Source of the DNA: Alitta virens | Taxonomy: Eukaryota; Annelida; Polychaeta; Phyllodocida; Nereididae | Direction of reading: 5' to 3' | NCBI GenBank assembly: GCA_932294295.1 | Contig: OW028580.1 | Coordinates: forward strand, 29,948,396 to 30,012,395 | Length of the DNA: 64,000 nucleotides | Part shown: positions 17,748-63,418 of the stretch, one piece after another | How the letters are laid out: every line of letters starts with the position of its first letter | Numbering within the stretch: position 1 is the stretch's first letter | The notes under the pieces: model-generated | Databases searched by the model: none | What the model was told of the DNA's origin: nothing | Seen by the model: the letters and a program-made list of their open reading frames with translations, nothing else | Made by a program: the position numbers and the translations under genes

Positions 17748-17945
17748 CCATTCATAACAAAACATTTCGTGTAGAGTTTTTATTTTTGACTTGTTTCACA
17801 TTAAATTTAACACAAGAAGGAGCCACCAGTCGAAATAGCAAGAAGCACAGTTACACATGCTTAGACATACATGTCACGTGATGTATGTAAAAAACCTTAT
17901 AAGTGTAACCTTACTGACACATCTTTCATCATTTTCAAGACAACA

Positions 17946-18242: not shown

Positions 18243-18252
18243 AGAATACAGA

Positions 18253-19380: not shown

Positions 19381-19392
19381 AAAAAAAACACA

Positions 19393-19818: not shown

Positions 19819-19829
19819 AACTTTTCGTC

Positions 19830-20288: not shown

Positions 20289-20344
20289 AAAACTGGTGCT
20301 CTTTCATGAAATATATATTTTTTCCTTTTTAAAATTTTCTCAAC

Positions 20345-21835: not shown

Positions 21836-21869
21836 TCATTCCGGAGTCATCAGAAAAGCTGTTAACACC

Positions 21870-29125: not shown

Positions 29126-29946
29126 GCTCTTGTCTCTCTGTAAGAAATGACAAAAAGCATGTGATTAATACGACTGGAAAGAACTAATTTTAATCAACAA
29201 TATTTGCTCTGAAACATCTGGCTAATTAGGTCAGTTCTTAAACAAAAGCTTGCACCTGATTCTTTACAAATACGCAGACAATATTTGCGCTGAAACACCT
29301 GGCTAATTAGGTCAATTCATAACAAATACGCTAAGTACGCATTAGTTTAAAAAATCGCAATTACAGTAAATGTTCTGATAATTCAGACACGTAAAAGCGG
29401 CGATATAAGAGCCTGTTTAAATTCGCAATTTTTGGAATAAAAAAAAAATGTTGGCTATAGTAATGAAGATTTTTTATTTATTTATTTATTTTTTTTTTTA
29501 TTTTTTTTTTACCGTAAGAGTTCTGATTGCCGCACAATTTTGGAATACAGCGCTTTGTCGGTGTTAGTAGCGGTGATTTCTTATAGTAAAAAATTTTTTT
29601 TAATACTACGCATTGGGGGGAAATCAATTACCGTAAATGTTCTGATAGTTCAGACGCAAAAGTTGTGGCATAAACAGTTCTTTAGATTCTAAATTTTGGA
29701 ATACAAAATATTGTTGGCTATAGTAATGAAGATTTCTTATACAAAAATAAAAAAATGTTTACCGTAAGAGTTCTGATTGTCGCACATATGTTCACAATAT
29801 TTTACACTCTTGTTATATAAATGAATTAAAACCCAAAATGTGCTGTACATATGAGCCACTGCTAGGGGAGGGTAAAACAACGCCTGTAATGAAAATTATA
29901 GCTTCTTACCATAGCTAACAAAATTACAAATTATTTTTTTTTGGTC
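29126..29946. repeat. duplicated noncoding blocks upstream of glycoprotein A
   Basis: A short block ctggctaattaggtca with its flanks occurs at about 29199-29238 and 29280-29318. A longer unit with gtaaatgttctgatarttcagac, tggctatagtaatgaagatt and accgtaagagttctgattg occurs at about 29358-29540 and 29622-29790. It lies between the two glycoprotein genes and may hold promoter or enhancer elements. No coding sequence seen. Confidence 0.75.
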
Positions 29947-31200
29947 TTACCTAAAAGTTGTTAGGAGCACCTCGCCATCATCACCGTCAGTGTTTGAGGC
30001 TCGCCCCGCTGCACCAAAATATCTGTAGGGTTCAGGTGTGCTGGGCCTGTAAATTGCCCTGCCTCCCTCCTGTTGAACACACATATTTTTACACTTTTTC
30101 TGACCAGTCCTGATACACAACTGCAAAAAGCGTAAACATCATAGTATTTTTTATACAGTGACAGTTTTTTTTTTTTTTTAAAACCAAAAAACTGAAAATA
30201 TGTTTTTATATAAATTACAGTACACACATACCTTTACAACACCATACAGAATGATTAATGTCAGTAGACAAGTATCCGGTGACATTGTTATAGTAAACCA
30301 CGTGGTGGTTGATCTTTTGTCTGTGGCTGTTATCAAGGGGGCCATGTTTGGTTTGAAACTAACCGAATTGTTTTTGGTGTTGCTGATGTTGGGGCCAGCA
30401 TTAGTGGGTGTTCTCTCAGTGGTTGATTGTATACTGGCGAAGTTGTGCACTGTTTGTGTGGACGCTAGAAGTGTGGCGAGTATTACAGACGTCCTTGACC
30501 TTGTTGTAAATGTAGAGGCCTCTAGAGGTGTTGACAGTGACGTGGTTGCAGGGGGGCCCTCTTGGGGTCTTTCAACACCTTGTGTTGAGGTCTCTTCACG
30601 GATGTCAGACCTGTCTGTAAACGGTGAAGTCCCATGAGGTGGTGACAGTGATGTGGTTGCAGGGGTGTCCTCTCGGGGCCTTTCAATGCCTTGTGTTGAC
30701 GTCTCTTCATAGCTGTCAGACGGGGAAACACTTCTTGGGCTGTTGATGGTTGTTTGACGTGCTTCCTCTGGCTGTTGGGGGTGATGGGTCTGTTGGCCCC
30801 TTCCTTAGTTATATAAAAAAAAGAAATGTTGCATGAAATATTTTTCTACTAAAAATAAAAACAACACACACTGTTAGCAAGAAAACTTAAGACACTTACC
30901 AGCCGTCCTGTTGCACAAGATGACCACAGCTTCTTGATGCTCTATGTGTGACACTGATTGACAAAAAGCCGTTCCTCCCATGTCTATTGAAACCAGCATT
31001 TTTGTCAATGTCGATGAAAATGAGGGGATTTCTTGCAGTGTCGACGTCATTGTACAGTTAGCTCTCACTTTCTTGATTGTAGCATCATAATAGCATGAGC
31101 ATAGATTGTACTGTTCCCTGAGTTTGTAAGCACCGCATGTAAAGGTGTAACCGTGTGCGCAGGCAAGCGTGCAGATAAATGCTATTAAAACGATCGACAT
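29947..31200 (-). CDS. spliced mucin-like type I membrane protein with LRRNT-like module (glycoprotein B)
   Basis: Three exons, 31200-30900, 30803-30232 and 30120-29947, with canonical sites and consistent phases, give 348 residues. Signal peptide about 1-16 (start at ATG 31200; the frame upstream has no ATG). Exon 1 carries cysteines 22, 34, 36, 49, 80 and 96; the spacing 34-36-49-80 equals that of glycoprotein A (48-50-63-94), so they are paralogues. Exon 2 is Ser/Thr/Pro-rich with two or more diverged tandem copies of a unit of about 38 residues, typical of heavily O-glycosylated stalks. It ends in a hydrophobic LLTLIILYGVV segment. Exon 3 is a short hydrophilic tail. A virion surface role is inferred. 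Confidence 0.7.
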
Positions 31201-31588
31201 TTTAACGTGCGTGTTTTGCAAGAAATATGTTAAAATATCCTGAAATTTGCTAGACGTCTGATCTGATGAAAATCACTGAGGGTGTGCTATACTGGTGCCT
31301 AACAGATCAGCGCAGTCAATCTCTTGTTGGCCTAGGGAACTTAAAACGATAAGACCATATTGGATACATTTTTCCTGATTTTTGTAACACGATAAGCTCC
31401 AGTGAGGATGTCTAACACGGATATAAGTTGGCCACGCGCTTAACTATTGATACTAGAGTGCTTTAAAAACATTTTCTGTCTGGTTCATGTTAATAAGAAA
31501 TTATTGTATTTTCCAGAAAATTTACAAAAACGTGTGCAAAAAAAAAACCAAAAATGTATAGAAAAATAGGTGGTCGGTTAGGCCTATG
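31201..31588. other. gap between glycoprotein B and PolB 3' end
   Basis: Contains the presumed promoter of glycoprotein B and the 3' region of PolB. Nothing else seen. Confidence 0.4.
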
Positions 31589-34500
31589 TTAATATCCATA
31601 AGGGACAGTGTCAAAAGTGCCCTGTATAACAACACGTTTAGTGAAGACCTTTCTAAATATTTTGGACTGGGGTCTGTTGTATATTATCCCCATATGTTTA
31701 ACCCTTGAGATCTGACTGGCTACAGGGAGTTTGACAATTTGTTGACGACCTATGACAATGTCTTTCATCACATCAAAGTCAATTATCATGTTATTGGTAT
31801 GGTTCAAAGTTATACCTTTGATTTTGGTAACGCACGTGTCATCGTTCTGTTTGTAACAGTAACTCTTGGGGCCTGAAGACAGGAATGTTTTGATGTACTG
31901 ACCTCTTGGCAGTTCGTCTGTCAGTTCACCTAAAAGGTCCCCCACATGGAGAGTTTCGTGATTGTTCTTCTCTCTAAAAATTACACTATCGGTGTCGAAG
32001 TACAAGGTGTCTTCACCCGTTTTTTGCAAAATTTTCAACAGGTGCAGTCGTGCTAGAGATGTGGTGAATGTGCCAATTATTTCATTGGTGAAAGTGCTCT
32101 CTTCCTCAAACGTGTCAGCGTTTTTGAATTCTAACACTATGTATTCATCTGTAATGATGTGAAAATTTGTAACGCTCTTTGTGGGGTCATTGCGCACTTT
32201 TGCAAGATCAGCGCAGCTTTTGACATACATTGTCTGCCCTATGTTGGATCTCTGTACAAACTTTCCCCACGCAGAATTTGCATACAGTTTAGAAATAAGT
32301 CTCAGAGAAGCATTGTATTGGACATTGTCCTTTTCCAGAGAAATACCCTGTTTTTCTCTGTAATTTTCAAGGTATCTGTCTTTATCATCCTCTGAAACGA
32401 CCCAGTTGGGGTAGCCTGACGCCTCCTGCTTAACCTTCAGGAACATTTTTACGTATTCTTCAAAAATGTTGCCAGGGCAACCATCGTCCATGCTGGTCTC
32501 CGAGAAGTGATACACTTCATAAATTTTAACAACCTTGTAACCCGCCTGCACTGCAGCCTTGACCTCTTCAGTGGTCCATGTGCCAGTTATAGATCTGTCC
32601 GCATCTGAACACTTGCAGGGTCGCGATGTCTCCGTCCGTGAACATTTTGAACACAGGGGGAACTTAAGCTTGCCACCGCAACGGACGGGTAGAACTGGAA
32701 TGTACAGTTTGCGGGGTGGGAGAACCTTGAGTTTCACTAGGCCGTAGTAACTCTCGAGGGTGTAGTCAAAATCATCATGATTTGTTATAATATCACAATG
32801 ATTGGTTGGGTAACGCCCAGAAAGCGTTATAAAGGGGTATAACGAGGTCACGTCTAGATAACGGATCTTTTCATCTTCCAGAGCCTCATAGAAAAGCTTC
32901 ACTGGTGACACGCGTCCTCCAAAGAACGAATCGCGGATTTTCAGAGGCGTGACAGTGTCACATTTTGAGGCAAACGCCTGTAGCTCGCTGTTTGATTTTA
33001 GCATGGCGTCAAATTCATATTCCCACATAACCACTGTGCTGTAGCCCATGCTACGGATCTGCTGAAGTCTCAGCATTGTTCTCTGATACACGCTTTCTAA
33101 ACTGGAGTTTGTCCGGGGGTCATAGATCTTCTGTCGGTCTTTCATACAGTGGTGCCCGTGAAAACGGCAACCAAAAAATTCATACACCTTTTGTGACTCC
33201 TCATGAAAACCGTCCACACTAAAACGTGTGCCGGGGATACGGTGTTCACCACCATTTCTGGAATGTTTGATCTTCCGCTGGTTTTTATGAGCCACCCATT
33301 CCAACCACACTATGGCTTTATTGCTGTCATTGGTATGTCGCCCATAACCCCTTGCTGGTATCTGTGGTATGGGTGACTTGACAAATTTTGTCTCAGCTAT
33401 CATTACTGTGTCAACGGGTTCACCCTCAAAAACCCAACTGCCCCTTTTCAGAACACCTCGACCTTTGCGACCATCAACTAGTTCAACATCGTGCTCCTCG
33501 TACAGCATCAGCTGTCTAATGATCTGCATGGCACTGGATGCAATTGTGGCGTGCGCAAAGGGGTCAACGCCTTGCACTGCTGACCCTTCAAGTGTTGTAA
33601 TTTGTCTGATCAGATTACGAAATTTTACGCACGCTTCCCTCAGGATGGATACATCTGAACGTGTATAGGCTAAAATTTCCTTCTGGAAATCGAACTCTTT
33701 AGTCTTTACACCACTATGCCAAGCCATGAAATCTGCTCGATCTTTAACACTCATGTGGTCTGCCCCGTACAAATGCGGTGCCGGGTGTGTGGCTGACACA
33801 AGGTTCCAGTTGTCCTTTGTGTTAAGGAAATGTGGAAACTGCCCTTTCATTAACTCTTGGCCGAGATTGAGAGCCTGTGGCAACTTTTTTAGGGCCATGG
33901 GTAAGAAGTTTAAACTGTCAATAAATCGGAGGTCTACACCCTCGCCTATGGTCATGGTCATAATTTTTGAACCGGTGTAAGTAACATCTGGAAATATACC
34001 ATTTTCAACGCAGTGGTTGAGAATGAAATGGTTGTCAAAAGCTTTTGAGTTGTGTGCAATTACAACCATACCTTTGTGCTGGGGTGTAATCAGCCATTGA
34101 CAGAAATCACGGCATGTGTCCATACCTTTAAACACACGTTCGCGCATGCCACACAAACCATTGGTGCACAATGGTTTGGTGAAACTGTCTTTGTCACGTG
34201 TTCCACACTTTGAACACCTGTCACCGCAGTTCTCACAGAGCGAATCGTGTTTGAAAGGGTCATCTTGACATGTGTCACATGCTGACTGGCAGACAAGGTA
34301 GTTGGGCAAATGTCTCTGTAAACCGCAATAACTCCTTTTACAGTTGACACATTTTCGACACTTTGCACACAGTTGATTTGGGTGACAGTCAGGACAGTTA
34401 GGAAGAGATTTGCAAGTGTAACCATTTTCACATTGTATGACTGTATCTTGACAGGTTTCAAAATCATAATAAAGGAACCTTCCCGACGTGATCTTAGGTT

Positions 34501-35903
34501 TCTTAATTCTGTAGTAACACAGATGGTCGTTAACCACATATTCACCACAGCATCTGCAGAACCACTCGCCACAGATATGAGATTTAAAGTCTCTCTTTGT
34601 CTTATCGATAATTTTTGTGCACTTTTTACATCTGTGAAAAGTGTCACAAAGTGATAGGCGTTCTTCGCCTTTCTTTGCACCAATTTTGTACTCCCTGGCC
34701 TCCTTGTGTAAAAGATAGCACTTGGCGTTGCGGCACACCATGTTACAGTCTGGGCAGGCTAAAGAGTCCTCACCAAACATACACACTTGTTCCCCGCAAG
34801 TTTTGCACATAAATCTACACGAGTGTTTAACTTTCCTGGCATATGTTGTGAGACACTGCTGACACAACTTCTTGTTGACATAAAAACCATTGATGTTGAC
34901 AATACTATGGTAATGTTGGTCTTTCAAATAAAGAAATATCTTGTCTTTCATGACCTTGAAGCCTTTGTAAATCACAGTGTTACCCATGTCCCCAGAAATG
35001 ACAACAATTTGTATACCTAGTTTTTTTTCAAATCTACTGAGTTCTGTAACAGGTACAGCCCTACGCATTGACATTCCTGTATCTAGGTACAATCTAATAG
35101 CCCTCATTCTTTGAGACTTAGGATTGGCACTGTGGACATTTCTATGACTAATAATCATGTTGTACTCTTTTTTGTTCATGTTTTTCAGTTTGGCCATACA
35201 TGTTACTATAGCCCTGCCTGCACACAGATATTCACCTTCAACATCGGGTATGAAAACCATTGATCTTTTTTTCTTAATTGAGCAATCTTCCGAAGTGGTG
35301 TCTGTATTGGTAATGGCTTTTCGGCGCGCTGAACCATCGCCACCGCCCCCAGCCTCTGCATCATGCATTATACCCACATCCACCATGAAAGACTCATCTA
35401 TGTTCAGACTTTGGTTTGACTGCAAAACGGCACCCACTCTAAATTTAACAAGAAAACACAATGAAATAGAACAATAGAAGCATGATCTTGTAATATCGCT
35501 CAAAAAACATATATATATATATATATATTTTGACATTTTACACTAACCTTTCCATGATGACGTCGGTAGTTATATTGTGCTGGGGTTGACAGTGTATGAA
35601 AATCTCCCTATCAAGACCAGCATGTCTAATGGAGAGTCTTGTTCTGTCGTTACTGTTGACATGATTAGCATTCACATTCTCCAGAATATCTTCAAACATA
35701 TTGTGTAGGTCGTCTGTAACATCCAGCAATTTTTGACCTTGAAGGTTCTCATCAAATTTTGCCCTAAACGTAATTTCTTCGACATCATAACGTCTGGCTC
35801 TTCTCTCATTAATTCTTTCGATAACGTATGGCTTCCTGTCATTTTGATCATCATCGCTACTGGTTGAAACATTCCTCCTTTTCTTACCAGGAGGTTCAGC
35901 CAT
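31589..35903 (-). CDS. protein-primed family B DNA polymerase (two exons)
   Basis: Exon 1 35903-35548 (ATG 35903) and exon 2 35438-31589, a 109-bp intron with GTTAGT donor and TTTAG acceptor in matching phase, give about 1401 residues. It replicates the linear genome from protein-primed ends. Exonuclease motifs: YYDFET (near 34470), AHNSKAFDNH (34040), YTRSDVSIL (33655). Polymerase motifs: A DVTSLYPF (32850), B KLYANSAWG (32275), C YFDTDSV (31990). Upstream lie Cys-rich zinc-finger-like repeats (34200-34850) and a CAGRAIV...HYHSIVNINGF region resembling an OTU-like fold. A GCRFHGHHC nuclease-like insertion (33165) is typical of Polinton polymerases. No lesion. Confidence 0.93.
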
Positions 35904-36520
35904 CTTTGCCACATGCGAAAAAGTGGTTGTTTTTTGGGTGTAGATAGAAAACCGCGCCAAAACTCAATGGCCAATGGTAAGTCCTCGAAAAAGGGGGGTC
36001 CTTGTTTTAATTTATTACCAATAGAATGTGTACATTTTTGAGGTTCCCGCTATCATCATTTGATTTTTGAGGGGGAAAGAAACGTTTTTGACCTTTGGTG
36101 ATTTTGAAACACAACACCTCATGATGCTATTGTGTTTGAGCACTAGTGTCACAACATAACACAAAGTTATACGTGTGCTCATTTGGTTGCTCATTGTATG
36201 AACGCTCTCAGCACGTGCTGTCTACAAGCCTTCTTTTATTTTAACCAAACACAATACAGTGCTTAACAGTTGATTTGAGGTATGGGGTCGAACAGTCCTT
36301 AACCTTTGATGCTTTTGAAACAAAACCTCATGATGCTGGCATGTTTGAACTCTGGTACTGCCACGTGACACCATGTAGCACGCTTGCTCAGTTGATTAGT
36401 CATTGTTTAGAAGCCCCAACATGAGTTGTCCTCACGCTTTTTTTTTTTTTGTGTTATATTTCTTTTATTATTATCAAAAAGGGTACAGTATAAAACTGAC
36501 CATTACAAAGAAATATAATG
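35904..36520. other. PolB upstream region with duplicated segment
   Basis: Holds a diverged tandem duplication of about 200 bp (36087-36260 and 36290-36470), sharing ttttgaaacacaacacctcatgatgct-like sequence, a gctcatt block and a T-rich end. No gene seen. Probable PolB promoter region. Confidence 0.65.
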
Positions 36521-37117
36521 TCACATTGGTACATTGTACAGTGAAACACAAAATCGTTCTTTGCTCTCTTGTGCTGGTCTATGTACAAGAACACCGTCAC
36601 AGTATTTAACAAGAAGGTTACACGGAAAGCACAGGTCTGGATCTTCAGGAAAAGCTTGCAGATTCATTGAAACTGTCAAGAACGTATCGGCTCCATACAT
36701 TGAAGGCAAGGCTCCAGACATTGAAGGCAAGTATGTTTGTCTTTCAGGTGTGATTTCTCGCTTGCACACGCATGTCTTAGCATCTTCTGATAAAGGTGGT
36801 AGTTGTGGTGGATCACGGCTTGCCAAAAATCTCTGGAAATCCACAGTCTCACCTATGAGTTCCTTCAATTCTTCTAGAATTACACAGGTGTCAGGATTTT
36901 CTTTCTGGAGCTCCGTTGTTATAGTTATATCACTGTTTTCCCACACTTCATCACTGAAGAAACTGCTTGAAACTCTTGGATCACTGTAGACATCATAGAA
37001 ACGTGCGGCTCCCTTATCTTCATTAATGTCCAGTTGCAGAATTTGGTAGCTCATTTCACTTATTTCAGAGGTATCAATGTCAGACTGTGTTGGACAATGT
37101 TGTCGACTGTGCGCCAT
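36521..37117 (-). CDS. uncharacterised protein near right end of element 1
   Basis: 198 residues from ATG 37117. Not recognised. The N-terminal half is acidic (SDIDTSEISEMSYQ, DVYSDPRVSSSFFSDEV). There is a short internal duplication (LPSMSGALPSMYGA), and the C-terminal part has CFPCNLLVKYCDGV. No signal peptide or membrane segment. It is the outermost gene on the right, mirroring the acidic gene at the left end; such terminal genes in DNA viruses are often early or accessory, which is an inference. Confidence 0.55.
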   Translation of the reverse strand: MAHSRQHCPTQSDIDTSEISEMSYQILQLDINEDKGAARFYDVYSDPRVSSSFFSDEVWENSDITITTELQKENPDTCVILEELKELIGETVDFQRFLASRDPPQLPPLSEDAKTCVCKREITPERQTYLPSMSGALPSMYGADTFLTVSMNLQAFPEDPDLCFPCNLLVKYCDGVLVHRPAQESKERFCVSLYNVPM

Positions 37118-37777
37118 GGTTAGCCGTGAAGTTTTAACATGTGTATTATGCTACTCACTCAGAAAAACTACACATGCTGCCCCAGTTAAAATTTTAACCC
37201 ATTCAGAACTGGTGGCGTCCTCTCACTGATACAACTAAAGTTGCAACTGTGTACAGTTGTAACACAACTCTTAACATGTGATTTTACATATAAACACATT
37301 AAGGCTTACTGTGCGGTTTATATTGTTAAGAATACAATGTCTAGAAAAGCTACAATTAAATAGCACTTCTTTTATTACCTTAAAAAACATGGCCATCTGC
37401 AAATGAAAGAAATTCTATCTATTTCCAGCCCCCTCACTCTGTGATAATAACATTAGATGTACCAAATTGTGCAACACCATGATGTTATATGAAGGGTTTA
37501 AATATATATCAGTGAACACTACAATGCATATAATTGTGTATCATTGTACAAATTATGGCCAATCAAATCTTCATCAAAATCTTTCATTAAGACATTATGA
37601 TAATAATTAATGTTTTTAATTAACATCAATAATTAGTCTTGCATATGCTTACACCTCTGAAAAACTTTTTATTATTAAAAAACCTGTAAAATATCTGCAA
37701 CTAATTAATCATATATTAATTAGGATCCCTTGATTACACATGTGTACACATATAACTTTGATAAATACATATATAAT
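37118..37777. other. noncoding right flank inside element 1
   Basis: AT-rich, no gene recognised. Presumed promoter of the gene at 37117, followed by the decayed inner part of the terminal repeat. Confidence 0.5.
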
Positions 37778-37903
37778 GCGTATATACACAGCATGGTGGC
37801 AGCACCTCACATAACTGGCTGATGTGTGGTGGCAGCACCTCACAGTACAACAGTAGCGCCACCTGCTGTATGCGTTAGTCTGCATGGTGAAGCCTATACT
37901 ACT
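37778..37903 (-). repeat. right terminal inverted repeat of element 1
   Basis: Reverse complement of 15605-15730 with few differences. Followed directly by tagagt (37904-37909), the copy of the target duplication at 15599-15604. Confidence 0.95.
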
Positions 37904-45371: not shown

Positions 45372-46006
45372 TAACTGTTCTTCAGATGGCCTGTTAGTTG
45401 AGGTAATTGGGTTGCAAGGGCGCATCAACAGGACCCAAATTAGAAAATTAGTGTATGCCTGGGTTTGCTACCGACAATAACCTAATCAACCCGCAAAGTA
45501 CTCGGGTGATATCTGGATCCGAGGCAGGAGTTCGAGGCAGAGCTCCAAAAGTTTCCAGAACAATGATGGTTGCAGGACAAAAATGACTTGAGATTGGACC
45601 GCTAACAGTAGTAAAGGGCCGAGCTCTACAGACGTCAAAGGAATCCACTTGACATTTGGTGAAACGGAGGTAGTAAGGTAGCAACATCAAAGGGAAACCC
45701 ATTGTCTTTTGGAGAACAGGATGAAGTAGGGTAGTAATTAAATTTCACACTCCAATGCATCCGGTGAAGCTAGGGTAGCTTATGTGAAGGAAGGGTAGGT
45801 AATAAATCGCACACCTGTCAAAGTCATCACGTCATAGGAAACCCCCAATTCTAAAAATAGAAAATCCATTGCACCCTGCTGCGATGAAGTCATTTTCTAA
45901 AAATAACTCGCCATCCTGTAGCGGGCCAGCAGGCCAGCAGGCCAGCAGGCCTGCATTGAAATCACCATCATAAAAGCGATTGGTACTCTTGTTCCTCATC
46001 ATTGAA
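45372..46006. other. region containing the unplaced left end of element 2
   Basis: Between the TCTG repeat and the PolB ATG. No inverted repeat matching 63420-64000 was found by eye, so the terminus is not located. A GGCCAGCA repeat (about 45925-45955) lies shortly upstream of PolB. Confidence 0.4.
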
Positions 46007-49000
46007 ATGGCAGAGAGCAGAGATGACGCTTTGATCAATGAATATTTTCAAAGTAACAATGGTCTCAGCGAAGTCTCTCAAGTTAGAGATAGATACAATC
46101 AGCTAACAACAAATGATTCAGCGTACAATGATTTTAAACAAATGCTTCAAAATTTCACAAACTCGCACGATTTAATGCTATTCGCTCATAGAAACGATCT
46201 AACCCAAGACCCTCAGGTTAAAGATAGACTTTCTCAATTCACTAGCAATAGCAATTATCTGGTAACCGCATATGACGATTTCACACATATGATTCAAAAT
46301 TTCACAAACGAACAAGATTTAATACAGTTTGCACACAGAAACAATCTGATTGGGGATGCACAAATTCAAAGCAGACTTCAGCAGTTAAACAACCATCTTT
46401 ACTGTCAAAAATGTTTCAAACAATTCACCAATAGAGTCTTTCAAGAACTACATCAAAGCAATTGCCAAGGTAATATTCCCATTCAAACAGTCACTCATGA
46501 TCCTTTTCCTGAATTCAATCAACCAGTACAACCAGTACAACCAGTAAAACCACTACCGCATAACTGCAATGTTTGTGGTAAATCTTTCACCACTAGCTTT
46601 AAGAGGAACACACATCAAAAGAAATGTACAGGATTCAAAAAATGCGTACAATGTCATGCACAATTTACTTCAGTTTCTTTATTCGGTGTACATAAATGTC
46701 AGGAAATGATGAAATGTCAGCACTGTAACAAACAATTTCAAAGTTTCTATGCAAAGCAAAGACACGAACTTAAATGTCAACTTCCTAAGGGAACAAAACA
46801 CAAATTTATTAGTCAAAAAAATAATCCAACTGATCTCCAACTACTGCAAAGTCTGCAGGTACCGCAGGTACCGCAGGTACCGCAGGTACCACAGCAGACT
46901 TTTTCGTGTCCAAATTGTTGCAAAACTTTTAAGAAAAAACCCTCATTAACCGAACACATGAAAGTTTGTGAGGGAGTGTTTGACTGTCAAAAATGTAAGA
47001 AAATTTTCACCAACAGCCTAGCTCATGATTCTCACTCGTGCGAAATTAAATGTCACTCATGTCACGCCATATTCAAATCAGAAAAAAGTTTTGGAAAACA
47101 TATTTGTAAAAAAACTCGAAAAAGGACACTTACTGATTCACACAACACTGACAACACTGTGCAACCATGCAAACGAAGTTGTAATAGCGTACAAACAAAT
47201 CAAACCGCAATTGTTCAGCCATGTGTTCAGTCAACCATTCAGTCAATGATTCAGTCACCTGTTCAGTCACCTGTTCAGTCAACCGTTCAGTCACGAGATG
47301 TGCTATGCGAAGTTTGCGGGAGGATTTTTAACTCTGAAAAGAGCCTGAGTATCCATAAACGTTATCACAAAAAAAATCAAAGAATTAGATGTAGACGATG
47401 TTTAGAGGAATTTCAGGATAGACACTCATTAAATATTCATGTAAGAGATTCTCATTTCCAACGAGGTAGAGGTCGAGCTCAAATAGTATCATTAGAAGAT
47501 GAGAAATTGCAAGAATTTTACAATAGATACCACTCATTCATTTATGATAACCACGAATTAGGGCAACCGCAAAGCTTTTATAATTATCCAGTAGTTGAAG
47601 ATTTCAGCATTGAAGACCTTATGGGTTTTGCTAACGAAATATTCGATGACCAAAGCCAATCCTTTAAGTTAAATCTATCTTTTGGATCCATTTTACAACA
47701 TATTGAGTCTGGAAAATACCGTTATTTCAAAGCCTATTCTAATGATCCCCTATTTGATCTACCCATTAGCATTTCAAATAGAGCAGATTTAGAGAAGCTC
47801 AGAGATCAACTGACTGAGATAGACGTTACAGCACATATTACTAAAGAGAGGCCTTCCACGAAGTGGAAATTAGTTCTTATAACAAATGTTAGATTCTACA
47901 TTACTTCAACAGGGTTCCCTTTAGGATCGGGTGAACTTCCCAAATATATCAGAAATAGTAAATCTATTATATCCCTTATACATAGTTTTAAGAGTAAAAA
48001 GAAATATGAAGACAACCTTTGTCTATTCAGGTGCTTAGCATTCCACAAACACAGAGATCTATATAAAAAGACTGAACATTTCGAAGAGAAAGTTCACAAA
48101 TATTACCAAGAATTCGCAAACGCTTGCGAGCAAGATTTGGAAGGAGGAGTTGACCTGCAGTTAATTCCAGATTTTGAGAAATTTTTTCAGTTAAACGTCA
48201 ACATATTTTCTTTACACGAAGATGAAACTGCACACCCCATATTTAAATCAGGTCATAGATACGTCAACAGTATGAATTTGAATCTTTACCAGCATCACTT
48301 ATCATATATCACTGATATTAATAGATATTGTAGTAAATATCAATGCTCAAACTGTGAAAAACACTTCAAAACTTTCTTCATATGTAAAAGACACAGCCAA
48401 ACGTGTACATTAGCAACGAAATATCAATTTCCGGGTGGTTTTTACGATATGAAACGAAATATTTTTGAGCAGTTAGAAGAATTTGGAATAGATGTCTCCA
48501 ATGATGAACGATTTTACGAATATTTTATAGTCTACGATTTCGAGGCATATTTGAAAAAAATAGAGAATGATTCGGTAGAAAATACAATGATTACAGCAGA
48601 GCACATTCCAATTAGCGTTAGTATTTGTAGTAATGTCCCAGACTTTGAAGAAGCTCACTGTATTGTCGAACAAGATCGCGAGACGCTTGTGAAGGCAATG
48701 CTCGCATATATGACTAGAATTCAATCAACCGCGCAAGCGCTTGTTCAAGAAAAACTTAGTTTTGTAATGCAGGAACTGGAATCTCAATTGAATACTTGGA
48801 ATACTGAAGTAGATGAGAAAGAAAGCTTCAATGCCATAATGCGTACAAAAATCCAAAACATGATTGACGCATTCGAACATTATTACACTCAGATTCCAGT
48901 TTTAGGTTTTAACTCTGCAAAGTATGACATAAATTTAATCAAAAGAGAAATAGCTAGATGTCTAGAATTGCACAATTCAGAACGCAAGTTTATAGTCAAG

Positions 49001-51418
49001 AAAAACAGTTCATACTCCTGTCTTGCTAATGAGAGTTTTAGATTCTTAGATGTGATAAACTACTTAGCACCGGGCACGAGTTATTCTAGCTTTTTAAAAG
49101 CTTTTAAAATTCAAGAACAGAAAGGATATTTTCCATACGAATTTTTTGATGATCCCTCCAAGTTAGATTATCCAGAATTACCTCCGTACGAAGCCTTCTA
49201 CTCTAACCTAAAGCAATGTAATGTCCTGGAGACATTTGAAAATTACCAATGGTTGAAAACAGTTTGGTTGAGCGAAAATATGAGTTGTTTTAAAGATTTT
49301 CTTATATGGTATAATAATTTAGATGTGACACCATTCGTTAAAGCAGTTATGAAGCTGCAAGACTTTTATAAGGTTAAGCGAATAGATATTTTCAAAAGCT
49401 CCATTAGTGTCCCAGGAATTGCTAGGCAATTAGTTTTTCAGAGTGCAGAGAAAAATGGTGCCTATTTTTCTCTGATTGACCAAAAAAATTCGGACCTTTA
49501 CTTCTCCTATTTACAGAATATAATTGGAGGAGCTTCTATTATTTTTCACAGACAAGCTCAGAGAGATAAGACATTTATTCGGGGTGGTAATAATCGGGTG
49601 AAGAGAATAATAGGATATGACGCTAATGCGTTATATCTATACGCCTTCAGCAAAGAATTTCCAGTGGGTTCATTCATTAGAAGACACGCGAAAGATGAAT
49701 TTAAACCCGTGGTGAGGGATAGATATGATAACATGTTCTATTGGATGGATTATTTAAGTCATAAAAGAAATCTAAAGATTTGGCATAAACGAAATGGAAA
49801 TAAGGAAAAGAGAGATGGTCGTTTCTTTGCTGATGGAGTATCTTGTTCAAATAATATAACTAAAATATATCAATACGATGGTTGCTATTTCCACCATCAC
49901 GGTGGTGATTGTCCTCTAATGAATAAAAATTTATCTGAGAAAGAAAAGAAAAAAGGGTTACTCGCGCAGAAAAGAAGACAAGATAGGAATAACTACTACA
50001 AAAAGTTAGGATACGAAGTTGAGGAAATATGGGAATGCAAATTTCTGAAAATGATTAAAGATACTCCGGACTTGCAAAAATTTGTAGAAAACCAAAGACC
50101 CAAGTTTTTCAAAAAACATAAGAAAACTCTGACAGAAAAGGAAATTTTAGAAGCGGTGAAACGGGATGAACTATTCGGTATGGTAGAAGTAGACATCGCA
50201 GTTCCCGAAAAATGGGAACAAGGTTTCAAACAGCCGGATAACTTGACACCATACAAATATTTTAGTGAGATGTCACCGATATTTTGCACTACCGATATTC
50301 CATTCGAAGTAATAGGTGAACATATGCAAAATTTTGCTCGTGATTCAGGAATGAATACAAAACCTAGAAGACTGTTGGTAGGAGGAATGAAAGCTAGGAA
50401 AATGCTATTTGCTACACCTTTGTTGAAATGGTATTTAGAGCACGGTTTAGTCGTATCCAAAATTCACCAAGTCATAGAATATAACAGAATGAAGTGCTTT
50501 CAGGAATTTGTTAGCGATGTGACAGAGGCCAGGAGAGCGGGAGATAGAGATCCAGATTTATCAATAATTGCTGATTTATCAAAACTTATAGGAAATTCCG
50601 CCTATGGATCAACTATCCTTAATAAACTGAAGCAGACCGATGTTAGATATGTAGAAGGTGAGAATGAGGCTTGCCTCAAAGCTAACGAGAAAGGATTCAA
50701 ATCCATGACCCAACTTTCCGATGATTACGAATTTTATGAAATCGAATCTCAAAAAAACAAGATTAAGTTAGATTTACCAATTCAAATAGGTTTTTTCATT
50801 CTGCAATATGCCAAGTTAAGAATGTTAGAATTCTATTACGATTTTCTCTGTAAATACGTTCCTAGAGATAAGTTTCAAATGCTTCAGATGGATACGGACA
50901 GCAATTACTTTTCAATAGCAGGGGAAACATTGCAAGATGTGATTAAACCAGAACTCTTAGATGAATATAAACATAAGTTAAATGGATATTGTTCGGTTAG
51001 AGACATTGATGCTGAAACTCATTGGTTTCCAAGAACTTGTTGCCCAGAACACACTAAATATGATAATCGTTGCCCCGGGTTATTTAAACGTGAATACGAA
51101 GGTGAGATATTCTATGGACTCTGTTCTAAAACCTATATCGTAGCCGACAAAGACCATTGTAAGTTTAGTTCTAAAGGTATATCCAAAAACAGAGTCAAAA
51201 ACCCTCTAGAAATATTTAAAAGCGTTTTGGAGACTAAGGAAAGTCGTAGCTCTACCAATGTAGGATTTATCAGTAAAAGTAATACTATTTTCACGTACCA
51301 ACAGAATAGAGCCGGATTCGCTTATTTTTATCCTAAAAGGGAAGTATTAGCTGATGGTATCTCAACCAAACCCTTAGATATAATATTAGAACCGATACGA
51401 ACGAAGTATTTCAGGTAA
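46007..51418 (+). CDS. protein-primed family B DNA polymerase with zinc-finger array
   Basis: 1803 residues from ATG 46007, single exon. The N-terminus has two diverged repeats (FKQMLQNFTNSHDLMLFAHR; FTHMIQNFTNEQDLIQFAHR), then about eight C2H2-type fingers (46399-47110; 47299-47450) separated by VPQ and VQS repeats. Next are a Polinton PolB N-terminal region and an OTU-like NLCLFRCLAF (48016). Exonuclease: VYDFEAY (48540), GFNSAKYDINL (48905), WYNNLDV (49311). Polymerase: A YDANALYLYA (49620), B KLIGNSAYG (50584), C MDTDSN (50888). A GCYFHHHGGDC nuclease-like insertion lies near 49885. Longer than the element 1 polymerase because of the finger array. No lesion. Confidence 0.95.
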   Translation: MAESRDDALINEYFQSNNGLSEVSQVRDRYNQLTTNDSAYNDFKQMLQNFTNSHDLMLFAHRNDLTQDPQVKDRLSQFTSNSNYLVTAYDDFTHMIQNFTNEQDLIQFAHRNNLIGDAQIQSRLQQLNNHLYCQKCFKQFTNRVFQELHQSNCQGNIPIQTVTHDPFPEFNQPVQPVQPVKPLPHNCNVCGKSFTTSFKRNTHQKKCTGFKKCVQCHAQFTSVSLFGVHKCQEMMKCQHCNKQFQSFYAKQRHELKCQLPKGTKHKFISQKNNPTDLQLLQSLQVPQVPQVPQVPQQTFSCPNCCKTFKKKPSLTEHMKVCEGVFDCQKCKKIFTNSLAHDSHSCEIKCHSCHAIFKSEKSFGKHICKKTRKRTLTDSHNTDNTVQPCKRSCNSVQTNQTAIVQPCVQSTIQSMIQSPVQSPVQSTVQSRDVLCEVCGRIFNSEKSLSIHKRYHKKNQRIRCRRCLEEFQDRHSLNIHVRDSHFQRGRGRAQIVSLEDEKLQEFYNRYHSFIYDNHELGQPQSFYNYPVVEDFSIEDLMGFANEIFDDQSQSFKLNLSFGSILQHIESGKYRYFKAYSNDPLFDLPISISNRADLEKLRDQLTEIDVTAHITKERPSTKWKLVLITNVRFYITSTGFPLGSGELPKYIRNSKSIISLIHSFKSKKKYEDNLCLFRCLAFHKHRDLYKKTEHFEEKVHKYYQEFANACEQDLEGGVDLQLIPDFEKFFQLNVNIFSLHEDETAHPIFKSGHRYVNSMNLNLYQHHLSYITDINRYCSKYQCSNCEKHFKTFFICKRHSQTCTLATKYQFPGGFYDMKRNIFEQLEEFGIDVSNDERFYEYFIVYDFEAYLKKIENDSVENTMITAEHIPISVSICSNVPDFEEAHCIVEQDRETLVKAMLAYMTRIQSTAQALVQEKLSFVMQELESQLNTWNTEVDEKESFNAIMRTKIQNMIDAFEHYYTQIPVLGFNSAKYDINLIKREIARCLELHNSERKFIVKKNSSYSCLANESFRFLDVINYLAPGTSYSSFLKAFKIQEQKGYFPYEFFDDPSKLDYPELPPYEAFYSNLKQCNVLETFENYQWLKTVWLSENMSCFKDFLIWYNNLDVTPFVKAVMKLQDFYKVKRIDIFKSSISVPGIARQLVFQSAEKNGAYFSLIDQKNSDLYFSYLQNIIGGASIIFHRQAQRDKTFIRGGNNRVKRIIGYDANALYLYAFSKEFPVGSFIRRHAKDEFKPVVRDRYDNMFYWMDYLSHKRNLKIWHKRNGNKEKRDGRFFADGVSCSNNITKIYQYDGCYFHHHGGDCPLMNKNLSEKEKKKGLLAQKRRQDRNNYYKKLGYEVEEIWECKFLKMIKDTPDLQKFVENQRPKFFKKHKKTLTEKEILEAVKRDELFGMVEVDIAVPEKWEQGFKQPDNLTPYKYFSEMSPIFCTTDIPFEVIGEHMQNFARDSGMNTKPRRLLVGGMKARKMLFATPLLKWYLEHGLVVSKIHQVIEYNRMKCFQEFVSDVTEARRAGDRDPDLSIIADLSKLIGNSAYGSTILNKLKQTDVRYVEGENEACLKANEKGFKSMTQLSDDYEFYEIESQKNKIKLDLPIQIGFFILQYAKLRMLEFYYDFLCKYVPRDKFQMLQMDTDSNYFSIAGETLQDVIKPELLDEYKHKLNGYCSVRDIDAETHWFPRTCCPEHTKYDNRCPGLFKREYEGEIFYGLCSKTYIVADKDHCKFSSKGISKNRVKNPLEIFKSVLETKESRSSTNVGFISKSNTIFTYQQNRAGFAYFYPKREVLADGISTKPLDIILEPIRTKYFR

Positions 51419-52955: not shown

Positions 52956-53252
52956 ATGCTCAGATGCGATCGTGATGCTTTGCGTAGGAACTTTGTAGTT
53001 TTGGTTAGAGAAGTACCTTGTACAGAAGTGCTTTCATTTCTTTATCAAGACGGAATTCTCAATCAGCAAATGGTAACTGAAATATTAGAAGAAGCACCAT
53101 CGAAACGAAATTACTCCCTTTTATTTCTGCTACAGATGCGAGGACCCGCTGCATTCGCATCCTTCCTTAACGCATTGAAGGAAACAAAAAGAACCGATCT
53201 AGCTAATCTCTTAACCAATCTCGAAGACGAATTCACAAAAGTATCGATATGA
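52956..53252 (+). CDS. CARD-only protein
   Basis: 98 residues, nearly the length of a single caspase recruitment domain. The six-helix pattern is clear: RRNFVVLVREV (helix 1), EVLSFLYQDGILNQQMV (helices 2-3), LLFLLQMRGPAAFASFLNAL (helices 4-5, with the conserved RGPxAFxxF turn) and TDLANLLTNL (helix 6), closest in feel to caspase-2/caspase-9-type CARDs. CARDs bind each other in apoptosome and inflammasome assemblies, so a stand-alone viral copy could be decoy or adaptor; that is inference. It has its own repeat-rich promoter region and overlaps the next gene by ATGA. No lesion. Confidence 0.88.
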   Translation: MLRCDRDALRRNFVVLVREVPCTEVLSFLYQDGILNQQMVTEILEEAPSKRNYSLLFLLQMRGPAAFASFLNALKETKRTDLANLLTNLEDEFTKVSI

Positions 53253-54308: not shown

Positions 54309-55724
54309 TTAAAGCCCGCTCTCTACATCTTTGGGGCGACCACGAGGCGTCTCAGCAGCGGTAGCGGCAGCAGCAGCGGTGGCGGCAGCGGTAGCGGCAG
54401 CAGCAGCAGCGGCTGTCATGGACCTCGTCACCGGGCCACTCACTGTAGGAGACGGGGATGGCGCACCCACCAAGTCCTGCAGGGTTCTCGGGAGTCTCAA
54501 TCCGCGTGGAACTGAAATAAAAAATAATAAACTTAATATCAGCATTTTTCCCCTATTATTAAAACTAATTTACTCTTTACAACGATCCGAGGATTCCCTG
54601 CTGGGATATCCCCCGCTGGTATGACGTCATTTTTAGGATCTCCCCAGCGGAGCCAGCGGAGCCAGCAGCGCCAGCAGCGCCAGCAGCGTCAACAGCGCCA
54701 CTCTTTACGTTGCGGAGGATAATAGAAGCTTCAAGATACCGCATCGCGCATGCGTTGTAGCGCACAGCGTCAAGGGTATTCCCTCCCGGGTGACGTCATT
54801 TTTAGGATCTCCCCAGCAGCGCCAGCGGAGCCAGCGGAGCCAGCGGAGCCAGCAGCGCCAGCAGTGTCAGCAGCGCCGCTCTTTTTACTACGGAGGAAAA
54901 TAGAAGCTGCAAGATACCGCATCGCGCATGCGCGAAGCGATGCTTTTTTTAGATCTAATAATGTAAACATTAACGCGTGGGTAGTGCTATACAGTAAGAC
55001 GCATAAACGTTCGGTTAATAATAAAAATTTAAATTTAAAAAGACTTACTTTCTAGAGAAGGGGGAGCCCTTCTCTTGCAAGCTTGACAGCGGCACATGAA
55101 CATTATCACCCGGTGTATGATTTTCTGTAGCCATAATATCGTGGAAACGGAACAGGGTGGTGGTGGAGCTTGTCTTCTGAATTGGTTGATTCTTCTCCAT
55201 GTCTTCAGCAAACCGCACATAACGCTTACATTCAACGTCAACAATCCAGCCAAAGACACAGAGAAAAATCCGAACCACCCTTCAACCTCCACATCAAACA
55301 TTTCATCATCATCATCATCATCTTCATCATCCGTTTTGTCTTCATCATCCGTTTTGTCTTCAGCCACATCATCCACATCATCCATGACAACAGTTGATCC
55401 ATCACCGGATTCGTCATTACACCCATAACTCCACTTCCTCAGCCGAGAGATACCACACACACCATAAAGTTCAACATGAAGATAACCTTCTAAATCAGAA
55501 GTCTTAACTCCATATCCATCATGCTCATCACTGAAGTGTACAACCAACACAGTCTCAGTCCTTCCTTCCAGAGGTAGGAAGGGCACAACATTGCCACACT
55601 TCATTACTGCATCTTCACAGATACAGTAATTCCCCTCCAAACACAAAACCTGAGTTTGGACAAACTCAAACGAACCAAAAAACAATAACAATTCAAGCAA
55701 TCCAAACATAGTGAAAAAAATCAT
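54309..55724 (-). CDS. spliced type I membrane protein with LRRNT-like module (glycoprotein C)
   Basis: Exon 1 55724-55049 and exon 2 54511-54309 (GTAAGT donor, TTTCAG acceptor, phase 1) give 292 residues. Signal peptide about 1-24. A cysteine module with Cys 28, 34, 36 and 43 (C-x-C-E-D-A-V-M-K-C) resembles the LRRNT caps of the two element 1 glycoproteins, and Cys 90 and 102 follow. Then an acidic run (DEDDDDDDE) and a membrane segment about 151-173. The basic cytoplasmic part continues into exon 2, which has a long Ala-rich tract. Surface or receptor-like function is inferred. The 537-bp intron holds a duplicated GC-rich block. Confidence 0.68.
54613..54955. repeat. 169-bp tandem duplication with CRE- and NRF1-like sites
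   Basis: Two diverged copies start at about 54613 and 54782, within the intron of glycoprotein C. Each has TGACGTCA (54622-54629; 54791-54798), a run of agcggagccagc-type repeats, and a GCGCATGCG site (54746; 54924). The sites match CREB/ATF and NRF1 consensus palindromes, suggesting a promoter or enhancer. A coding role (GSAGSAG-like repeats on the minus strand) is less likely. Confidence 0.7.
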
Positions 55725-56469: not shown

Positions 56470-57132
56470 ATGGATGTGTGTGTAATATGTTTGGTAGATG
56501 GTGGTAAGCAATTGTTCTGCTGTAATGCCATAATTCACCACTCATGTTGTTCAGCATACATTAATAATTTCGATTTCGTCATTTATGGTGCTTTGAAATG
56601 TCCACACTGTCGTAAAGAGTGGCTTTTTGAAGAATTAAGCAAATTTTTACATGAGAATTTGGAGGAGAATCCAATGCTGGAAGCGCAGGAGAATCCAATG
56701 CTGGAAGCGGAGGAGAATCCAATGCTGGAAGCGGAGGAGAATTCGGAGGAGAATTCGGAGGAGAATTCGGAGGAGAATTCGGAGGAGAATTCGGAGGAGA
56801 ATTCGGAGGAGAATCCGGAGGAGAATTCAATGCTGGAAGCTGAGGAGAATTCGGAGATAGGAATTGAGAGGGAAATGGTGGTATTAGAGGTGGATCAGCT
56901 GGAAGCTGGGGAGGGTGGAGATCCTCAGGTAAGTGTTGGATCACCACAGGATATTTTTGAAACGGAAGACTTTCAGGTAGGACCTTCAATTTATTATGAC
57001 TCATCAATTGATGAGATGGTGGTGGATTACAGCAGAGTCTCATTTCAAACCATCTCTGATGCAATGGTTAGAATTGTTAATGGTAGATTGGAGAGTGTTG
57101 AGTGGGAAGCTGATGAATTTTCGAGATTTTAA
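56470..57132 (+). CDS. RING-finger protein with acidic repeats
   Basis: 220 residues. Residues 1-50 carry a RING-type Cys/His cluster: CVIC, then CCNAIIHHSCC, then CPHC. This suggests an E3 ubiquitin ligase, an accessory activity found in several large DNA viruses. Residues about 62-125 are in-frame 12-base expansions (EENPMLEA and EENSEENS repeats). The C-terminal third is acidic with no recognised domain. Target unknown. Its 3' end faces the protease gene across a triplicated hairpin repeat. Confidence 0.75.
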   Translation: MDVCVICLVDGGKQLFCCNAIIHHSCCSAYINNFDFVIYGALKCPHCRKEWLFEELSKFLHENLEENPMLEAQENPMLEAEENPMLEAEENSEENSEENSEENSEENSEENSEENPEENSMLEAEENSEIGIEREMVVLEVDQLEAGEGGDPQVSVGSPQDIFETEDFQVGPSIYYDSSIDEMVVDYSRVSFQTISDAMVRIVNGRLESVEWEADEFSRF

Positions 57133-57536: not shown

Positions 57537-57971
57537 TCAGATAACGCTCTCATACATTAGAGAATATATAAAACTATCAAGATTCACATTTTTCAACAAA
57601 CGAACGATAGAAGAAAATTCTATTCCCTGACTACGCAAAATAGTATAGAATATACAAAATTTACCGCAGTCATCGGATTTAAGGTTTTGAAGAGCGATAT
57701 CATTGTATACGTACCTACCGCACTTTTTAATTAAAAACTTGTGCCAATAAGAATGATAGTTTTCCGGGTTTTCACCCAAAGAATCAAAAAATTCGCAAGT
57801 ATGATTATTCACAAATACAGCAACCCAATGAGTGCCTGCACTATTGGCTTCATCGGTATTCAATATAGCTATAGTGTTATCTTTGATTAAATGAATATGG
57901 TTAGCAGGGTAAACCCCACCAAACTCTGGATAGTGTCTACGTAAAATGTTAGTTATTTCCGAAGTGTTCAT
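57537..57971 (-). CDS. adenain-type maturation protease
   Basis: 144 residues. Cysteine protease of the adenovirus maturation type (C5/Ulp1 fold), expected to process capsid precursors. The catalytic order is visible: His48 in GTHWVAVF, Asp63 in CEFFDSLG, Gln95 in IALQNLKS and Cys102 in DDCGKFC. Length is somewhat shorter than adenovirus protease but normal for Polintons. The ATG overlaps the capsid stop (ATGA), so it ends the capsid block. Element 1 shows no counterpart. Confidence 0.93.
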   Translation of the reverse strand: MNTSEITNILRRHYPEFGGVYPANHIHLIKDNTIAILNTDEANSAGTHWVAVFVNNHTCEFFDSLGENPENYHSYWHKFLIKKCGRYVYNDIALQNLKSDDCGKFCIFYTILRSQGIEFSSIVRLLKNVNLDSFIYSLMYESVI

Positions 57972-60054: not shown

Positions 60055-60335
60055 TGCACCCCAGGGTTGCAGCCCTGGGTTGGAACCCCAGGGTTGGAGA
60101 CCTGGATGTACCAGTTCTTAGTCTAGGTCACAAAACTAGGTCACAAAACTAAGTCACAAAACTAGGTAATAAAACTAGGTCACAAAACTAGGACACAGGT
60201 CACAAAACTAGGTCACAAGACTAGGCCACAAGACTAGGTCACAGGTCACAAGACTAGGCCACAGGCCACAAGACTAGGTCACAAGACTAGGACACAAGCC
60301 TAGGTCACAAGACTAGGTCACAAGACTAGGTCACT
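60055..60335. repeat. cccagggttg repeats and 14-bp minisatellite
   Basis: 60055-60105 contains four related ccagggttg/ccctgggttg units in both orientations, able to fold. 60124-60335 is a minisatellite with unit about aggtcacaaaacta, roughly 15 copies with variants. It reaches into the integrase gene, whose last codons and stop (CTAGTGACCTAG) are made of repeat sequence. Confidence 0.93.
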
Positions 60336-61438
60336 AGTGTTGCTTTTTGGAGATGTTCTATTTCACTTTTTTTCATCCATGTCGAGTGTTTCTTAGGCCA
60401 ACCTAACCATTTAACCAACACTTTATCTCGTTTCCTTTTAAGTATTTTTTCTATGAGGTAAGTCTGATTATCATCAACTACCACTTTCTGCAGCTCGTTT
60501 TCTTGGAAATGCCCGTTTAAGACTTCGTTTTTCAAGTCTTTTACTACATAGATTGGTTTGATATCTCTCATAATTCTATCAGCAATGATGAAATGTTCTC
60601 TTGTCCACGATTCGTCAAATGCTCTCATGAATGGGTGTCTGACTACACTTATCCTAACCGTATCGTGTATATTAAAACGAAAATCGGTTTGTATCTTATC
60701 AGGTTGCTCCGTTTCATATAACTGCTTCCATATTTTGTATTCATCCGATACTGTAACGGAAGCAGGAGTCTGTTTAATACTGCTATGATAAGAGTGATTG
60801 TAGGAATTTGTTGCTTTCTGCAACTGATCAACCCATTTGTGTGTATTTTGAGCAAGCATATAGGTAAACAATAACTTTTTTAAAGTCTTGAAAAATCTCT
60901 CAACTATGTTGGCTTTTGTTTCTGTATTATTAGTAAAAAAATGATTTATTCTCAGTTTCTTGAATAAATTCTGTGTCGCACGGGATCTGAACTCGGGACC
61001 TCTATCAGAACGACAGTTGGTTATAGTCCCTAATTTTAACAACAAGCTTTTTAAAGCTGGAACAAATTCTTGCGATTTCAAACTTTTCAAAGCTACTGTA
61101 TGAGCAACTTTACTGAAGCAATCAATCCCAGCTAAGATGTAGATATATCCGGAATTATCTTTATCGTACTGCGGTATATGAGCTGTATCCAAGTCTATTT
61201 GATAACCAATATATGGAGTTACAACTCGATTTCTAACAATGTTAGTATTCACTTGTCTAAGTAATGTGTAATACTCTCGACTTTGTAGAAATTCTTTGAT
61301 TTGTTTTCTGGTTAAGATATGTTTATTATCTTTTTTTATAGCTCTGTAGAATTTATCAACGCTACTATAGGCTCCAGGAAAGTTAAAATCTTGAAATTTT
61401 TCCAGAAGATAGTTTCTCACATCTTGTGCCAAATCCAT
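60326..61438 (-). CDS. retroviral-type integrase
   Basis: 370 residues from ATG 61438. rve core with the DDE triad: Asp in YQIDLDTAHI, Asp in NCRSDRGPEF and Glu in NIVERFFKTLKK. The N-terminal part has KFYRAIKKDNKHILTRKQIKEF, a family helical region. The C-terminal IEKILKRKRDKVLVKWLGWPKKHSTW is chromodomain-like and clearer than in element 1. Its start overlaps the upstream Ala/Pro/Val-rich gene by 22 bases in another frame. The last codons derive from the adjoining minisatellite. Confidence 0.95.
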   Translation of the reverse strand: MDLAQDVRNYLLEKFQDFNFPGAYSSVDKFYRAIKKDNKHILTRKQIKEFLQSREYYTLLRQVNTNIVRNRVVTPYIGYQIDLDTAHIPQYDKDNSGYIYILAGIDCFSKVAHTVALKSLKSQEFVPALKSLLLKLGTITNCRSDRGPEFRSRATQNLFKKLRINHFFTNNTETKANIVERFFKTLKKLLFTYMLAQNTHKWVDQLQKATNSYNHSYHSSIKQTPASVTVSDEYKIWKQLYETEQPDKIQTDFRFNIHDTVRISVVRHPFMRAFDESWTREHFIIADRIMRDIKPIYVVKDLKNEVLNGHFQENELQKVVVDDNQTYLIEKILKRKRDKVLVKWLGWPKKHSTWMKKSEIEHLQKATLVT

Positions 61439-62770: not shown

Positions 62771-63418
62771 TCAATCTTTTTTGTATATAATAGTATCTTC
62801 CATGGGGAATATTTTTGTTCTGAGTCGTAATTCATCAGGGCATTGCGCTGTTAAATCTATAATGAGATACCCGTACTGCTCATTTTTCATTATATCATTA
62901 TAAGCTTGGATTAACAATCCAGGGATATGAGGGAAGATTTGACTATTAAGATATGATAATTGTAATAAACTACGAGGAGAACGAAATACTTCCATGTATT
63001 TTGTGTTAAGATTTATTGTCACTTGCTTCTTTCCTTGAATGAAAGCATTCTGCAGTATGTAGAAACATGTGCAATTCCTATGGTGACTTATTCTTGTAAA
63101 TAACAATTCCATAACTGAGGAATTAGCTGCTTCATCCATGAGATCATCCACAATTATCAAACTATGTTTTTCTGGATCAGTAAATGCTAACAATTCATCT
63201 TCAGTAGGTAATCCTTGCTGAAAACTAATGTTTTCTATGATTTCTTGTATTTGGTCATAGGTATTTTGCCAGATGCCGTAGTAATATTTTATAATAGATG
63301 GTGGCTGTTCACCGAATAAATGCTCCTTATTTTGTAGTATTCGCTTAATAAAATTAGTCTTTCCCGATCCTGACTGACCAAATAAGATATGCGTGGATCC
63401 GGGTTCAAACCCCAACAT
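62771..63418 (-). CDS. A32/FtsK-type genome-packaging ATPase
   Basis: 215 residues from ATG 63418. Walker A is GQSGSGKT (residues 14-21), Walker B is HSLIIVDDLMDE, followed by CFYILQNAFIQGKK and YGYLIIDLT as in element 1. Located upstream of integrase here, whereas in element 1 it follows the capsid gene, so the module has been rearranged between the two lineages. Confidence 0.94.
   Translation of the reverse strand: MLGFEPGSTHILFGQSGSGKTNFIKRILQNKEHLFGEQPPSIIKYYYGIWQNTYDQIQEIIENISFQQGLPTEDELLAFTDPEKHSLIIVDDLMDEAANSSVMELLFTRISHHRNCTCFYILQNAFIQGKKQVTINLNTKYMEVFRSPRSLLQLSYLNSQIFPHIPGLLIQAYNDIMKNEQYGYLIIDLTAQCPDELRLRTKIFPMEDTIIYKKD

Follow-up and report, generated by a model that had tools for sequence, protein, structure and literature searches.

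A stand-alone CARD protein encoded by a Polinton in the genome of Alitta virens

Proteins that consist almost entirely of a caspase-recruitment domain (CARD) are known from double-stranded DNA viruses, namely the iridoviruses, whose examples include GIV-CARD, the 64R vCARD of frog virus 3, and the proteins of lymphocystis disease virus and cod iridovirus, with lengths of approximately 90–100 amino acids (aa) where seen. The 91-aa CARD protein of grouper iridovirus lowers the activities of caspase-8 and -9 and is anti-apoptotic (PMC4457926), and frog virus 3 without vCARD triggers more apoptosis (PMC4974522). The host regulators ICEBERG, COP, and INCA (PMC4457926) are likewise single CARDs with no effector domain that follow a decoy logic. 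Here we describe a 98-aa CARD-only protein encoded by a Polinton, termed element 2, in a stretch of 64,000 nucleotides of the polychaete Alitta virens (assembly GCA_932294295.1, contig OW028580.1, forward-strand positions 29,948,396 to 30,012,395; hereafter the window). It resembles the iridovirus proteins in composition, size, and predicted structure; unlike them, it is carried by a Polinton of about 19 kb that is integrated at high copy number. A literature search covering titles and abstract openings, with the main adintovirus description outside its reach, found no report of a CARD in Polintons.

That the open reading frame (ORF; Table 1), which comprises 98 codons with an ATG start and a TGA stop, encodes a CARD and little else is firm. 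Its product matched the Pfam CARD profile PF00619 with an E-value of 3.8e-10 and 40.1 bits (curated cut-off 23.9) over residues 6–88 of 98, covering profile positions 1–84 of 85, and no other Pfam domain was found above cut-off. The RGPxAFxxF turn of the CARD was kept as RGPAAFASF. When a CARD profile (alignment A3, 12 sequences) was compared with PDB sequences, 19 matches were obtained at E ≤ 0.01, comprising one designed protein and 18 apoptotic CARDs (RAIDD, Dronc, caspase-9, CED-3, and Apaf-1); because of these 18, the assignment was not considered a chance result. Judged by profile, the element 2 CARD is of the apoptotic kind, a kinship in which it differs from ICEBERG, COP, and INCA.

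The structure predicted for the protein, a confident model (pLDDT 87.6) and not a solved structure, consists of six helices at residues 3–18, 22–31, 37–45, 48–62, 64–76, and 80–96. A fold search with this model gave the CARDs of Apaf-1 and caspase-9 as the top matches, with ICEBERG at rank 25. Among viral structures, the CARD proteins of lymphocystis disease virus and cod iridovirus came first, although the iridovirus match was modest (E 0.05, 18% identity, probability 1.00), and herpesvirus E10 proteins occupied ranks 3 and 4; the gammaherpesvirus E10 targets, likewise viral CARD proteins, are far longer (511 and 311 aa). In the CARD alignment, the acidic positions D32 and E42 and the basic positions R51 and R79 were kept, as was R10 in all sequences but one. 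The first-pass annotation, which had proposed this CARD from the letters of the window, had named a lack of death-fold matches as grounds for abandoning the proposal; profile and fold searches instead returned CARDs.

Element 2 is a Polinton extending from position 45607 to window-frame position 65044 (19,438 bp), its right end lying 1,044 bases past the window. Its inverted repeats are 99.1% identical over 226 bp, and its termini, AGTAGT..ACTACT, are flanked on either side by the 6-bp target duplication GCTAAC. Its integrase and protease, its inverted repeats, the AGT..ACT termini, and the target duplication of 6 bp are all shared with Polintons/Mavericks and adintoviruses; of the end motifs described for vertebrate Mavericks, a doubled AGT/ACT is the most frequent (PMC8097293).

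To delimit the distribution of the gene, 671 Mb of the genome in 23 contigs were scanned for the CARD, and 150 of 220 candidate matches were scored, so that all copy counts are lower bounds. The CARD recurs in at least 150 matches, 30 of the 150 scored being identical over all 98 residues and only four containing internal stop codons, and it falls into four subfamilies with 50–66% identity between them. Gene neighbours were checked at 17 CARD loci, each spanning about 10 kb, as well as at eight short loci and two further 10-kb loci. In 13 of the 17, a polymerase like that of element 2, degraded in some copies, was located 5' of the CARD. The adjoining CARDs were 90–100% (L014–L016, L020, and L021, over the matched part), 62–65% (L010, L022, L023, and L026), or 50–53% (L011, L012, L017, and L024) identical to that of the window, the same kind of polymerase thus accompanying three of the four subfamilies. 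Another locus, L018, held a shortened CARD copy and element remnants only. In L022, a piece of another Polinton (1943–2484; 96% to a 199-aa ORF of the window and 91% to the integrase start) was nested between degraded polymerase pieces.

The fourth subfamily (L013, L019, L025, L029, and L030) has a CARD 57–58% identical to that of the window, and no other element 2 gene was found within any of these 10-kb stretches. The one copy traced, L013, sits in another Polinton type, similar to element 1, the second complete Polinton of the window. The polymerase, integrase, capsid protein, and ATPase of the L013 element were 40%, 44%, 27%, and 32% identical to those of element 1, respectively, the ATPase being slightly nearer to that of element 2 (36%). 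This element has inverted repeats at both ends (L056:1146–1911 with L013:6148–5241), and the CARD lies just inside the right one; 18 identical copies of the L013-type CARD were counted among the 150 scored matches. The ORF is therefore conserved in related elements, which disposes of the other ground for rejection given in the first-pass annotation. The single CARD noted there proved real and the note too modest, as there are at least 150 matches, the same CARD occurs in a second type of Polinton, and element 1 has a CARD-like protein of its own, described below.

The CARD gene is under purifying selection between subfamilies. As calculated by the NG86 method, the ratio of nonsynonymous to synonymous substitution rates (dN/dS) ranged from 0.16 to 0.34 wherever dS was defined, single values being rough owing to dS often exceeding 1.3; dS was undefined for 12 pairs, those of the window group (window and L014–L016) with L013, L019, and L025. 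In a test independent of dS, the observed nucleotide changes were randomly respread over the first 90 CARD codons in 2000 trials per pair. For six of six between-subfamily pairs, the respread changes altered more amino acids than the real ones in every one of the 2000 trials; four within-subfamily pairs gave a weaker outcome, the respread changes altering no more amino acids than observed in 3, 26, 8, and 0 of 2000 trials. When the window was compared with L026 over 2.1 kb, the shared DNA consisted of the CARD ORF with 12 bases before it and four after its last sense codon, and the next long shared DNA appeared only about 600 bases beyond the CARD. The Pfam match, the inverted repeats with the GCTAAC duplication, and the selection across four subfamilies together bear out the earlier proposal of a stand-alone CARD in a Polinton.

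The CARD gene is followed by a companion ORF (Table 1). An ATGA overlap between the CARD stop and the start of this ORF was found in the window, L014–L016, and L012, which represent two subfamilies; in L010, L022, L023, and L026 the next ORF, shorter in L010 and L022, begins 15 bases past the CARD stop, and the CARD reading frame of L017 and L020 continues into the companion. No companion of at least 60 aa was found after the CARD in L011 and L024. The companion of the window group is a homologue of that in L023/L026, with 38–39% identity (alignment A4). As regards a death fold in the companion, neither a Pfam domain nor likeness to the host CARD profile was found. It is possible that the two ORFs form a two-gene unit with linked translation.

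The relationship of the element CARDs to those of the host was examined in two trees. The first contained 40 rows from the genome, 16 of element type and 24 from 22 host loci, after L001–L008, L012, L017, L020, L021, L025, L029, and L030 (copies, near-copies, or sequences with an altered end) and domains below 12 bits had been left out; the larger one additionally left out L018, L031, L032, L046, and L051 (shortened or long-branched) and included ten public relatives. L050, L053, and L055, first labelled as host, grouped with the element CARDs and were counted with them. In the first tree the 16 element-type rows formed one group apart from the host rows (89/95, not starred), and in the larger one the 25 element-type rows stayed together (94/94, not starred). 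Neither tree gave a firm order of the subfamilies within this group. The nearest host locus, L035, has a long branch and an unsure placement. Elsewhere among the host CARDs, L034 encodes a protein that combines a CARD with a death domain, and L038/L039 encode tandem-CARD proteins. A position of the type-1 CARD beside L011, supported at 97/93 in the 40-row tree, was not upheld in the larger tree. The public relatives at E ≤ 1 numbered 13, were 44–98% identical to the window protein and 73–155 aa long, and lie on contigs of 514–3,389 bases; two carry the name caspase 2 in their source. In phage records, tblastn returned four weak matches (E 0.4–0.8), none of which covered 80% of the query.

Because of the apoptotic-kind profile, the lack of an effector domain, and the two anti-apoptotic viral precedents, we favor, with a probability of roughly 0.6, the reading that the element 2 CARD acts as a decoy against the death-signalling assemblies of the host and keeps the cell alive for replication of the element. 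A Polinton ancestor would have captured a CARD of the apoptotic kind (RAIDD or initiator caspase), presumably from an animal host, and retained it as a gene of its own. The protein, made inside a cell in which the element is active, would bind a host adaptor or initiator caspase through the CARD of that partner. Carrying no caspase, death, or nucleotide-binding domain, it would block or cap the caspase-activating assembly, so that the cell might survive long enough for the element to replicate. Several points weigh against the decoy. No clear host donor was found among the 22 host CARD loci sampled, and two IMG/VR scans with CARD alignments yielded 93 and 72 pattern matches, none confirmed as a relative. 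Among the caspase-9 arginines that we take to contact Apaf-1 (13, 52, and 56), only 52 was aligned with an arginine (R51), the others falling on F13 and Y53. The conservation of both acidic and basic positions would also fit an activating or self-assembling CARD, and we infer both the expression of the protein and its partner.

Such an activating CARD would nucleate a host CARD assembly and switch on a pro-survival or NF-kB-type response, as herpesvirus E10 does. The positions of the E10 proteins among the viral folds (ranks 3 and 4) and the joint conservation of acidic and basic positions speak for this alternative. However, the E10 targets, at 311 and 511 aa, contain much that the element 2 CARD lacks, and in size it is the iridovirus CARD proteins that match, the one tested being anti-apoptotic (PMC4457926); on balance we regard activation as unlikely. 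The CARD might also act against competitors, altering host death signalling in such a way that cells infected by other viruses or Polintons die or resist, in a virophage-like mutual benefit. The many copies and the presence of two CARD families in a single genome would suit this idea, and vertebrate Mavericks have been discussed as a possible virophage-based defence (PMC8097293), but the observed selection is equally expected if the gene serves the element alone, and we consider such a role improbable. An internal function, in which the fold regulates or scaffolds some process of the element itself, possibly together with the companion ORF, and does not act in host signalling, appears just as improbable: copies of three subfamilies have the companion after the CARD, with the ATGA overlap in two, yet the type-1 carrier keeps the CARD with no such companion seen there, and the charged CARD positions are conserved. 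That the gene is a functionless host exon carried by chance, host-exon capture by DNA elements being presumably common, is already contradicted by the purifying selection between subfamilies only 50–66% identical, the internal stops in only four of the 150 scored matches, and the shared position of the gene next to the polymerase in three subfamilies.

On the decoy reading, the CARD would interfere with host death signalling, as had been suggested from the sequence; the infectious past drawn from it in the same suggestion is reasonable as a conjecture. A CARD gene does not prove particles or transmission; it would also be useful to an element replicating only inside the cell. A death-acting gene is to be expected in an element whose replication phase harms the cell. 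It has long been asked whether Polintons are transposons only or viruses as well. A gene that would block or steer the death of the host cell is something a replicating virus needs, and selection has kept this one in several Polinton lineages. Through Polintons, a single animal genome can also be seeded with CARD genes in very large numbers, and some of these could become host genes. More tentatively, and with somewhat less confidence than an even chance, the Polintons of A. virens may hold death-fold proteins in an accessory slot, with at least two separate CARD lineages captured (the 98-aa protein and a 123-aa CARD-plus-strands protein) and exchanged between Polinton types; together with the companion ORF these would constitute an anti-death module, which would make sense if the elements pass through a viral replication phase during which the host cell attempts suicide. 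In the one traced type-1 Polinton with the element 2-kind CARD (L013), no protein of the element 1 kind was seen.

The 123-aa protein is encoded by element 1, which is bounded by the target duplication TAGAGT at 15599–15604 and 37904–37909. We term it CARD-like and not a Pfam CARD member because its PF00619 match (12.6 bits, E 0.14) is below the curated cut-off of 23.9. Several searches spoke against a CARD here. Three of 15 members of its family matched CARD (best E 0.063) and one matched LFE_1968-like (0.052); in a six-member search, one of six matched CARD (E 0.14) and another matched Nup54_C better (E 0.013). A single-sequence PDB search gave one unrelated chain only (E 0.82), and no direct profile kinship with the element 2 CARD was found. 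Element 1 has its own diverged CARD-like protein, a candidate death fold. Elsewhere in element 1, the ORF at 25040–25642 gave a weak PC4 coactivator match (E 0.0038, below cut-off).

Table 1. Coordinates of the CARD gene, its carrier Polinton, and element 1 in the window
Feature	Position	Strand	Remarks
CARD-only protein, 98 aa	52956..53252	+	Pfam PF00619, predicted fold, purifying selection
Companion ORF, 110 aa	53249..53581	+	Start codon overlaps CARD stop (ATGA); no Pfam match
Target-site duplication GCTAAC, left copy	45601..45606		Right copy outside window
Left terminal inverted repeat, element 2	45607..45828		Partner ends at window-frame 65044, outside window
Probable DNA polymerase B, 1803 aa, zinc fingers at the N-terminus	46007..51418	+	Kinship via sister copies
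ORF, 229 aa, membrane-protein-like by eye	55035..55724	-	Conserved in sister elements
ORF, 220 aa, RING-like solely in its Cys/His spacing as judged by eye	56470..57132	+	Conserved in sister elements
Adenain/Ulp1-like protease	57537..57971	-	PF02902 E 3.6e-6, PF00770 E 2e-5, both above cut-off
Putative major capsid protein, 439 aa	57968..59287	-	Kinship via L010 sister copy
Putative minor capsid protein, 147 aa	59569..60012	-	Named by position only; conserved in sister element L010
Retroviral-type integrase with chromodomain	60326..61438	-	PF00665 E 6.3e-9, PF00385 E 2.9e-6, both above cut-off
A32-like packaging ATPase	62771..63418	-	PF04665 match below the cut-off of 22.8 bits (18.7 bits, E 0.0013)
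Element 1, second complete Polinton of other type, 22,299 bp	15605..37903		Pfam matches to PolB and integrase
Diverged CARD-like domain (residues about 2–82) with predicted C-terminal strands, 123 aa, element 1	16822..17193	+	

Among the remaining genes of element 2, the probable polymerase gave no PolB Pfam match of its own and a C2H2 zinc-finger match below cut-off only, and its PDB matches were zinc fingers only among the matches listed; sister copies of the ORF matched the PolB of element 1 by tblastn, which in turn matches PF03175 at 1e-44. The putative major capsid protein found no PDB sequence match and no relative in an IMG/VR scan; its copy in L010 matches both the element 2 ORF and the corresponding ORF of element 1. 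The putative minor capsid ORF had no Pfam match. The RING-like ORF, which lacked a Pfam match above cut-off and has an acidic repeat tract after the Cys/His spacing, is possibly a ubiquitin ligase directed at the host. ORFs that look membrane-protein-like by eye, with a signal-like start or a Thr/Ser-rich stalk and a hydrophobic stretch, are present in both Polinton types (the 229-aa ORF of the window and L013 1528–2007) and could possibly encode surface proteins. Outside both elements, overlapping long ORFs at 2258–6397 of the window resemble, by eye, a tyrosine-recombinase (DIRS-like) retroelement.
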